Translations under genes and position numbers: made by a program | The notes under the pieces: model-generated | What the model saw: only the letters and a program-made list of their open reading frames with translations | Database searches by the model: none | Told to the model about the DNA's origin: nothing | Shown here: positions 40,801 to 43,800 of the stretch, piece by piece | Layout of the letters: every line of letters begins with the position of its first letter | How positions within the stretch are numbered: the stretch's first letter is position 1 | Source: Haliclystus octoradiatus | Taxonomy: Eukaryota; Cnidaria; Staurozoa; Stauromedusae; Haliclystidae | Assembly (NCBI GenBank): GCA_916610825.1 | Contig: OU744447.1 | Location: 34,328,869-34,392,868 of the forward strand | Length of the DNA: 64,000 nt | Direction of reading: 5' to 3'

Positions 40801-43800
40801 TCAATCACCTGGTCCCAGGTCATCTATAGTCTTGTGGTATCCCCATATCGAAAATATCTGATATTTATTTTATGGAATATCCAGCTGTATATTTAGAAGT
40901 AATGATCAATATCGTTGATTGAATTTGTTATTTTGTTTTAGGGAGCAGGAACAGATGAGGAAGCCATGATTGATATTCTGTGCTCAAGATCCAATGCTGT
41001 AAGTTCTGCTGTAGTTAATAATAACAATAATAATAATAATAATAATAATAATAATAATAATAATAATAATAATAATAATAATAATAATAATAATAATAAT
41101 AATAATAATAATAATAATAATAATAATAATAATAATAATAATAATAATAATAATAATAATAATAATAATAATAATAATAATAATAATAATAATAATAATA
41201 ATAATAATAATAATAATAATAATAATAATAATAATAATAATAATAATAATAAATATTATCCAATAGCAGTAAAACAGTGCTCAATGTCTGTTGACAGGGC
41301 TGTAAATATAAATAGAGGAGTCAAAGACTACACATTTTGTTACTGTAACTTGAAGTTTCACGCTTTATTGCGATCATCAGACAGTTATAACATCTAGTTT
41401 TAACTGTCTGATGATCGCAATAAAGCGTGAAAACTTCAAGTTTCAGTAACAAAATGTGTAGTCTTTGACTCCTCTATTTATAATAATGATAATAATAATA
41501 ATAATAATAATAATAATAATAATAATAATAATAATAATAATAATAATAATAATAATAATAATAATAATAATAATAATAATAATAATAATAATAATAAATA
41601 ATAATAATAATAATAATAATAATAATAATAATAATAATAATAATAATAATAATAATAAATATTATCCAATAGCAGTAAAACAGTGCTCAATGTCTGTTGA
41701 CAGGGCTGTAAATATAAATAGAGGAGTCAAAGACTACACATTTTGTTACTGTAACTTGAAGTTTTCACGCTTTATTGCGATCATCAGACAGTTATAACAT
41801 CTAGTTTTAACTGTCTGATGATCGCAATAAAGCGTGAAAACTTCAAGTTTCAGTAACAAAATGTGTAGTCTTTGACTCCTCTATTTATAATAATGATAAT
41901 AATAATAATAATAATAATAATAATAATAATAATAATAATAAATAATAATAATAATAATAATAATAATAATAATAATAATAATAATAATAATAATAATAAT
42001 AATAATAATAATAATAATAATAATAATAATAATAATAATAATAATAATAATAATAATAATAATAATAATAATAATAATAATAATAATAATAATAATAATA
42101 ATAATAATAATAATAATAATAATAATAATAATAATAATAATAATAATAATAATAATAATAATAATAATAATAATAATAATAATAATAATAATAATAATAA
42201 TAATAATAATAATAATAATAATAATAATAATAATAATAATAATAATAATAATAATAATAATAATAATAATAATAATAATAATAATAATAATAATAATAAT
42301 AATAATAATAATAATAATAATAATAATAATAATAATAATAATAATAATAATAATAATAATAATAATAATAATAATAAATATTATCCAATAGCAGTAAAAC
42401 AGTGCTTGCTCAATGTCTGTTGACAGGGCTGTAAATATAAATAGAGGAGTCAAAGACTACACATTTTGTTACTGTAACTTGAAGTTTCACGCTTTATTGC
42501 GATCATCAGACAGTTAAAACTAGATGTTATAACTGTCTGATGATCGCAATAAAGCGTAAAACTTCAAGTTACAGTAACAAAATGTGTAGTCTTTGACTCC
42601 TCTATTTATAATAATGATAATAATAATAATAATAATAATAACAATAATAATAATAATAATAATAATAATAATAATAATAATAATAATAATAATAATAATA
42701 ATAATAATAATAATAATAATAATAATAATAATAATAATAATAATAATAATAATAATAATAATAATAATAATAATAATAATAATAATAATAATAATAATAA
42801 TAATAATAATAATAATAATAATAATAATAATAATAATAATAATAATAATAATAATAATAATAATAATAATAATAATAATAATAATAATAATAATAATAAT
42901 AATAATAATAATAATAATAATAATAATAATAATAATAATAATAATAATAATAATAATAATAATAATAAAAATAATAATAATAATAATAATAAAACCTATA
43001 ATCGTTTGTTGGATTATTTATTTAGGAAATTGAAGCAATCAAGACAGAATACAAAACATGTGAGTTAGAAGCCTTATATCTTAGACGTCTGTGTTTGCAT
43101 CCCCCGATTGACCATAAATAATTGATATCATAGAATAAATTGAATATAAATAACTTGATTGTTGGCCTAATGATGATATATAATTCATTCCCCAGTGATA
43201 TTGTAAATAATACCAAATTGCCAACAGCATTGATTGGAAATTTAATGAAAAATCGGACGTTGTGACAAATTATTAACAATCCTGTATGCTATTCCCCTGC
43301 GAAAAACAGTTCAGGAGTTCATGAACAGTTCATGAACGGTTCATGAACTTTATATGGCTCTGATTTTCCTGAACAGTTCACGAACAGTTCATAAAAATTT
43401 GGGGCAATTTAACGTTCATGAACTGTTCATGAACCCTCATAGACAGTTCATGAACAGTTCACGAACAGTTCATAAAAAGTTTGGGCTATTTAACATTCAT
43501 GAAAGTCTGTTCATGAGCTGTTCATGAAACCCTTTCGATTGTCTTCTGAAACAATTGAAACACTTTTAAGAAGAAGGATTTTCAGTCTTGCAAGTGCATT
43601 AAGGTCAATGTAATAATTAATTAAATTATATCAACAAAGAGTGTTCACACTGCTTCAACATAGCTAGTAATTTAGTAATTGAGACAGTGTCCTATATCAC
43701 TTTTTTGTTTCTAGGGGAGTGACTCTTTCCGCTACAAACAATGATTGTAAATGCTCTTTATTGATCTCAGCTGTGACACTGCAGATCAATTTCACCAGAT

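Follow-up and report, generated by a model that had tools for sequence, protein, structure and literature searches.

Three palindromes in an annexin intron of Haliclystus octoradiatus are best read as non-autonomous copies of the 5' leader of a Penelope-like retroelement (PLE), made from either an uncut or a ribozyme-cut RNA template, an explanation to which, taken as a whole, we assign a probability of about 0.8. The palindromes lie in the 64,000-nt stretch of DNA analysed here (the window), and each consists of a head-to-head pair of leader copies with a ~55-nt tail on one side. Direct support comes from the dispersed repeat family, its linkage to PLE-like open reading frames (ORFs), the conserved hammerhead structure, and the clustering of arm ends at a start point and at the predicted hammerhead cut. 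The palindromes share the published anatomy of PLE leaders, and no prior report of cDNA ends at the cut site was found among the open-access papers searched.

Organization of the array in the annexin intron

The three palindromes proper (41307-41482, 41713-41889 and 42436-42610) alternate with (TAA)n blocks, as the original prediction had described, and their placement inside an annexin intron is borne out by the splice sites (Table 1) and by the exon in 40037-40414, which matches annexin IV with an E-value of 1.9e-12. By eye, the variants AGGGCTG and ATAATGATAA are common to all three units, and because these private variants are shared, the units are regarded as duplicates of one insertion. 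Other repeats in the window include a near-pure (ATA)n array of ~210 copies near the annexin gene (38979-39609) and arrays of an 11-bp self-complementary unit, AGTTCATGAAC, at 43316-43481 and 9610-9655, and fragments of reverse transcriptase (RT; Pfam RVT_1) occur at 10953-11528 (+) and 15986-17026 (-).

Table 1. Features of the array and of the surrounding intron, in window coordinates
Feature	Position	Strand	Basis
Annexin intron containing the array	40999..43025	+	GT at 40999 and AG at 43025 by eye; upstream exon resembles annexins
(TAA)n microsatellite, broken by three putative PLE leader units	41016..42992	.	Repeat analysis
Putative leader unit 1: tail (41252-41306), left arm, centre, right arm	41252..41482	-	
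Putative leader unit 2, duplicate of unit 1	41658..41889	-	
Putative leader unit 3, from the same insertion as units 1 and 2, palindrome flipped	42377..42610	-	
Hammerhead core, intact	41342..41385	-	Covariance model of relatives (R1), 46.1 bits, E 1.9e-11
Hammerhead core, intact	42471..42514	-	Covariance model of relatives (R1), 46.1 bits, E 1.9e-11
Hammerhead core with extra A after GAA	41748..41792	-	Covariance model of relatives (R1), 37.8 bits
Hammerhead core with G12 lost	42532..42575	+	Covariance model of relatives (R1), 39.5 bits
Hammerhead core with extra A and ACAGU changed to UCAGU	41403..41453	+	Covariance model of relatives (R1), 31.6 bits
Hammerhead core, damaged as the core at 41403	41810..41860	+	Covariance model of relatives (R1), 31.6 bits

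Several hammerheads within one array recall metazoan retrozymes, in which tandem hammerhead monomers yield circular RNA, and the units had been likened to repeats that give circular RNA. However, the two hammerheads of each unit are opposed, facing each other instead of following in tandem in the same orientation. Same-strand copies of the core do lie 407 and ~720 nt apart, but this spacing exists only because a single insertion was duplicated together with its (TAA)n, with the third palindrome flipped, making a retrozyme very unlikely.

The damage noted in the opposite arms is present on the plus strand as claimed, but it is not confined to one strand, because the minus core of the middle unit also carries an extra A. 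The further suggestion that one strand is under selection is not supported by genomic copies: of 38 independent units, 27 retain an intact minus-arm core and 25 an intact plus-arm core (minus only in 6, plus only in 4, neither in 7), with no strand bias of mutations. Since intact cores are nearly as frequent in one arm as in the other, the damage pattern in the window is uninformative on selection. Self-cleavage of the annexin pre-mRNA, also raised originally, is unlikely, because all three sense-strand cores are damaged and both intact cores are antisense. The window units are probably passive, and no effect of the array on the annexin gene is expected beyond intron length.

Identity of the hammerhead motifs

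At the level of sequence and predicted structure, the hammerhead motifs in the palindromes are real, as first proposed, an identification supported by a descriptor, helix pairing, covariation and a covariance model. Both intact minus cores carry the elements claimed for them, namely CUGAUGA, a hairpin, GAAA, ACU-UCA-AGU and ACUGU/ACAGU, including the U-U at 10.1/11.1, and satisfy the core of a minimal type I hammerhead (CUGANGA...GAAA, A15.1-U16.1, H17). A descriptor combining this core with the three helices gave 0 chance matches when run against 60 x 64 kb generated by a Markov model.

Covariance-model searches, which had been proposed as a check, gave a divided answer. At the Rfam gathering threshold there were 0 hammerhead matches in the window and none in 10 related loci; below it, HH9 matched both strands of all three palindromes at 21.0-25.4 bits, against a gathering score of 52, which is a library threshold and not a biochemical definition. 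The structure was therefore tested on relatives from the same genome, and their model recovered the intact cores (Table 1). This model was built from 13 rows sharing <0.80 identity with the window core, including two that came from a different unit of the window; it scored the damaged window cores at 31.6-39.5 bits, and its best match outside hammerhead rows reached 14 bits. Matches to microRNA precursors were rejected as long hairpins scoring below threshold, and minimum-free-energy (MFE) folding of single cores was uninformative (best z-score -0.68).

Pairing was assessed in 33 distinct cores from 343,955 bases, overlapping loci included, chosen by CUGANGA and GAAACU-N2/3-AGU only, so that helices I and II played no part in the choice of rows and the letters of helix III did. 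Helix I pairing was 3.70 of 4, compared with 3.27 for permuted partners, and helix II pairing was 2.79 of 3, compared with 2.61 (0/5000 permutations in each case). The variants observed are CUGU/ACAG, CCGU/ACGG, UUGU/ACAA and UUGC/GCAA in helix I, and CGC/GCG, CGU/ACG, CAC/GUG and UGC/GCA in helix II; helix III is invariant across rows, but its letters were a criterion of choice. Compensatory changes in helices I and II amount to 28 double-changed cells versus 8.4 after shuffling (0/500), a count that relatedness among rows can inflate, and paired cells make up 84.6% of the alignment versus 80.0% after shuffling. Neither pairs with a double change (7 vs 5.1; 41/500 shuffles) nor further pair types (12 vs 13.5; 471/500 shuffles) were enriched. 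Position 10.1/11.1 is unpaired in 26 of the 33 rows.

Additional hammerhead-like motifs occur elsewhere. A second head-to-head leader pair, belonging to another PLE family, lies at window positions 61847-62005. Its hammerheads occupy 61880-61921 (-) and 61931-61972 (+), with UUGC/GCAA as helix I and, on the minus strand, CGCC/GGCG as helix II; the Rfam hammerhead models do not match it, even with the cut-off relaxed to E 10. The motif at L041:1182 (minus), a single instance in the loci examined, is closer in look to classical dimer-type hammerheads, in that 10.1/11.1 is paired, helix II is long (GTTCC/GGAAC) and helix III (ACACGTGT) is self-complementary. A hammerhead-like repeat in (TA)n flanks (L026:1441; L027:1439, 1807 and 2067; and others) reads GCAGTA CTGATGA AGGCTAATGGCCA GAA ACATGTACTTGT C TGCTGC, with a helix I of 7 bp and A-A at 10.1/11.1, and has 15 instances in overlapping loci.

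Probable affiliation with Penelope-like retroelements

The 231-nt unit is a dispersed repeat in the genome, and its copy number is a lower bound because 40 of 1500 candidates were scored. Thirty loci, three of them from the window itself, share one plan, TAATAATAATA-AATATTATCC... followed by the ~55-nt tail, a left arm, a variable centre and a right arm ending in CCTCTATTTATA; the query contained the tail, so tail presence in these loci was selected. The units in these loci lie in (TAA)n, (TTA)n or (TA)n. Target duplications are visible by eye in L058, L068 and L072. The PLE-type traits observed comprise inverted leaders, an optional tail, AT-rich targets and short target duplications.

Linkage to coding sequence is seen at L031, where a core on the minus strand lies 157 nt after the end of an ORF and the 60 nt from CTGATGA match the window core exactly; on the plus strand, a further copy repeats this order with a core differing by two bases. 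The ORF end is preceded by a YIGLTE motif, which we take to be GIY-YIG, and the frame is broken there; RT and GIY-YIG in the PLE-like ORFs were assigned by motifs and are presumed on that basis. In a sister family, L032 contains open frames of 637 and 652 codons; for 394 aa taken from one of them, the protein database gave 5221 relatives, some carrying PF26215. Pfam searches with three pieces of PLE-like ORFs returned no domain. The ORF-linked copies also have TATA-like boxes upstream of the arm, outside the leader unit; the TATAAATAGAGG box originally assigned to each unit is actually the outer arm end.

Dispersed palindromes with target duplications would also be expected of a MITE or foldback DNA transposon. 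Such elements would have symmetric terminal inverted repeats with fixed outer ends, which the leader units lack, and the one-sided tail, copy-specific filler, inner-end truncation and PLE-like ORF linkage all argue against this origin, which is very unlikely.

In the tails of leader units from many diverged PLE families (for example L003, L015, L039 and window 61.8 kb), GCUCUG..GAGC is located between the putative RT start points, in rows picked by that very pattern, and its hairpin is a candidate protein-binding site.

Arm ends in the window family

Arm ends were mapped in 38 of 44 units (six without an anchor were dropped), giving 76 arms, of which 54 end at position 1-2 (ATCTAG), 11 at 3-12, 8 at 16-33 and 3 at 50/51. 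In arms with an intact ATCTAG, the upstream match extends only 0-5 nt, whereas an ORF-linked copy continues for all 26 nt tested and has TATATC 31 nt upstream of ATCTAG (distance by eye). Because arms stop at ATCTAG, the ORF-linked copy continues through it and TATATC precedes it at this distance, the motif is suggested to be a transcription start.

Position 50/51 is the predicted hammerhead cut. Of the 11 arms that end beyond position 12, 3 stop there, from two units (L054 and C2:34628347, the latter in L055), so the cut-site excess within this family taken alone is weak. Within 261.9 Mb, L054 alone combines the two exact 13-mer flanks with a gap of 0-30, and C2:34628347 is among five places with a gap of 62-92, the other four of which end elsewhere; these counts cover gaps of 0-30 and 62-92, and any peak at the cut holds for those ranges. 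At C2:34628347 one arm ends at the cut and its partner extends to ATCTAG; the two arms of a unit often differ in their inner stop point.

Junctions in the sister family and in a third family

The sister family (signature CUGAAGA...GAAACUUGAGUA^ACAGUAAAGAAUG) has 16 places with gaps of 0-30, versus none for a reversed control, and 50 units with gaps of 90-120; any peak at the cut holds for these two gap ranges. In the 31 long-gap units viewed, at least one arm extends, by eye, to about the start point. The 16 short-junction units lie in different flanks and have the tail, whole or partial, on one side in 14 cases, L060 and L062 having no tail within the flank examined. Fourteen of the 16 have at least one arm compatible with the predicted cut, whereas the junctions at C2:2059766 (unclear) and C6:4185455 (mutated) were not counted as cut-site. 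No TATA-like box was seen by eye ~30 nt ahead of the cut.

Seven of the 16 units have the joint CTTTAC(A/T)GTAAAG, exactly the product expected if two ...ACTGT ends (extent 6 and 6) annealed over their final 5 nt, leaving a single T.T mismatch. When the tail is placed at left, L067, L068, L070 and L072 have T at the centre and L069, L071 and L073 have A; separate events are favoured because flanks differ and both centre bases occur, and copying of a single unit is possible behind some of the seven. Seven further units contain filler or a shorter partner arm, each with at least one arm at the cut. In these, a script placed 8 of 14 arms at the cut (p 8.9e-5 for uniform ends over 16 positions) and inspection by eye placed 10, a difference that arises because one arm was read through a mismatch (9 nt) and another with two changes was scored 0. 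Apart from the 9-nt mismatch read, no filler-type arm exceeds the cut by more than 1 nt.

These junctions bear on a reading in which the leader pairs hold, the cut-site class arises as an artefact of joining and the ribozyme need not act, longer cDNAs having annealed at the ACTGT/ACAGT near-palindrome with flap trimming, or the centre having been lost through hairpin repair. The exact overlap at this near-palindrome in seven sister-family junctions is what such joining would leave, and ACAGU/ACUGU doubles as helix I. However, at least one arm also stops at the cut in the seven further units just described, and the unequal arms of C2:34628347 likewise argue against it. Near-palindrome joining could account for the seven overlap joints, but not for the other seven, and may bias part of the class; we consider an artefact of this kind unlikely. 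A host nuclease might cut at that phosphate in both families, but it would have to mimic the ribozyme. Stalling of RT at folded RNA fits the cut-site ends poorly: it would presumably stop synthesis before ACAGU, which the cDNAs contain.

A third family, with arms ending in GTGTTTT, gives a mixed picture, the palindrome of L019 having an overlap joint at the cut and that of L033 (also in L014) breaking elsewhere. This inconsistency weighs against cut and uncut RNAs both serving as templates, as do two results on PAc, a Poseidon element of Anolis carolinensis: RNA-seq had no reads at the cut, and the hammerhead was dispensable for insertion in vitro (PMC11167929).

Proposed origin and significance of leader pairs

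Under the preferred explanation of copying from uncut and ribozyme-cut leader RNA, the PLE transcript would begin at about ATCTAG and continue through the minimal hammerhead, AACAAAATG...CCTCTATTTATA and a tail with the GCUC..GAGC hairpin. RT would initiate within the leader RNA, either at its inner edge (UAUUUAUA) or at the tail end (GGAUAAUAUU(UUA)n), with the two strands of a cleaved AT-rich site serving as primers. The resulting cDNAs would each extend to the 5' end of their template and the two ends would be joined, often with a few filler bases, giving a head-to-head palindrome with the tail usually on one side. An uncut template would leave a cDNA end at the start site, and a hammerhead-cut template would leave one at GUU^ACAGU or its family equivalent. 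In the window, one such insertion was later duplicated along with its (TAA)n. Two-strand priming, the identity of the start point with the transcription start, cutting by the hammerhead and end joining are the four steps that we infer.

Palindromic junctions could instead reflect self-priming of one cDNA or use of an antisense template, as has been proposed for Adineta vaga (PMC3846280). We think it improbable here, as the two arms of a unit differ in outer stop, given the one-sided tail, and often in inner stop, for which fold-back would need extra steps, and PAc is described as extending both strands (PMC11167929). The one-sided tail fits two-strand priming at two RNA start sites.

It is likely, on genomic evidence, that PLE minimal hammerheads cut in living animals and that the cut RNA serves as an RT template, the two classes of leader pair recording this activity family by family. 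If true, genome sequence alone would document ribozyme activity for each family. Leader pairs would represent cDNA ends frozen in sequenced genomes, turning the ribozyme question into a count and enabling ends at the cut to be compared between families whose ribozyme is intact and those in which it is broken. Leader pairs are informative, too, about how head-to-head PLE copies form.

Comparison with known systems

The closest structural counterpart is Penelope of Adineta vaga, for which the sections of PMC3846280 used here describe head-to-head inverted pLTRs with palindromic junctions, a preference for AT-rich simple repeats, an optional 31 bp tail on one pLTR and a pLTR that extends into the ORF start. 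The units described here share the inverted leaders, one-sided tail and AT-rich targets. However, in A. vaga the pLTRs either surround an ORF or captured DNA or occur by themselves, whereas here compact ORF-less leader pairs are numerous, and those sections mention neither a hammerhead nor cut-site ends.

In PAc, two internal RT start sites define the tail, both strands of AT-rich DNA are cleaved and extended, and the hammerhead adjoins the ORF start (PMC11167929). The likeness comprises a hammerhead and AT-rich DNA, and would extend to two RT start sites and two-strand action; in contrast to the lack of PAc RNA-seq reads at the cut, genomic cDNA ends here fall on the predicted cut.

Minimal type I hammerheads in PLE pLTRs are covered by PMC7761336 and PMC6466107, in the passages concerning Cervera and de la Pena 2014 and Lunse et al. 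2017. The present motifs resemble them in being minimal type I with a short helix III, and may differ in that 10.1/11.1 is unpaired in 26/33 rows. Metazoan retrozymes, as characterized in part of PMC7229834, are likewise non-coding, repeated and equipped with type I hammerheads; they are tandem repeats with mostly canonical hammerheads, whereas the units here are opposed pairs with a minimal hammerhead.
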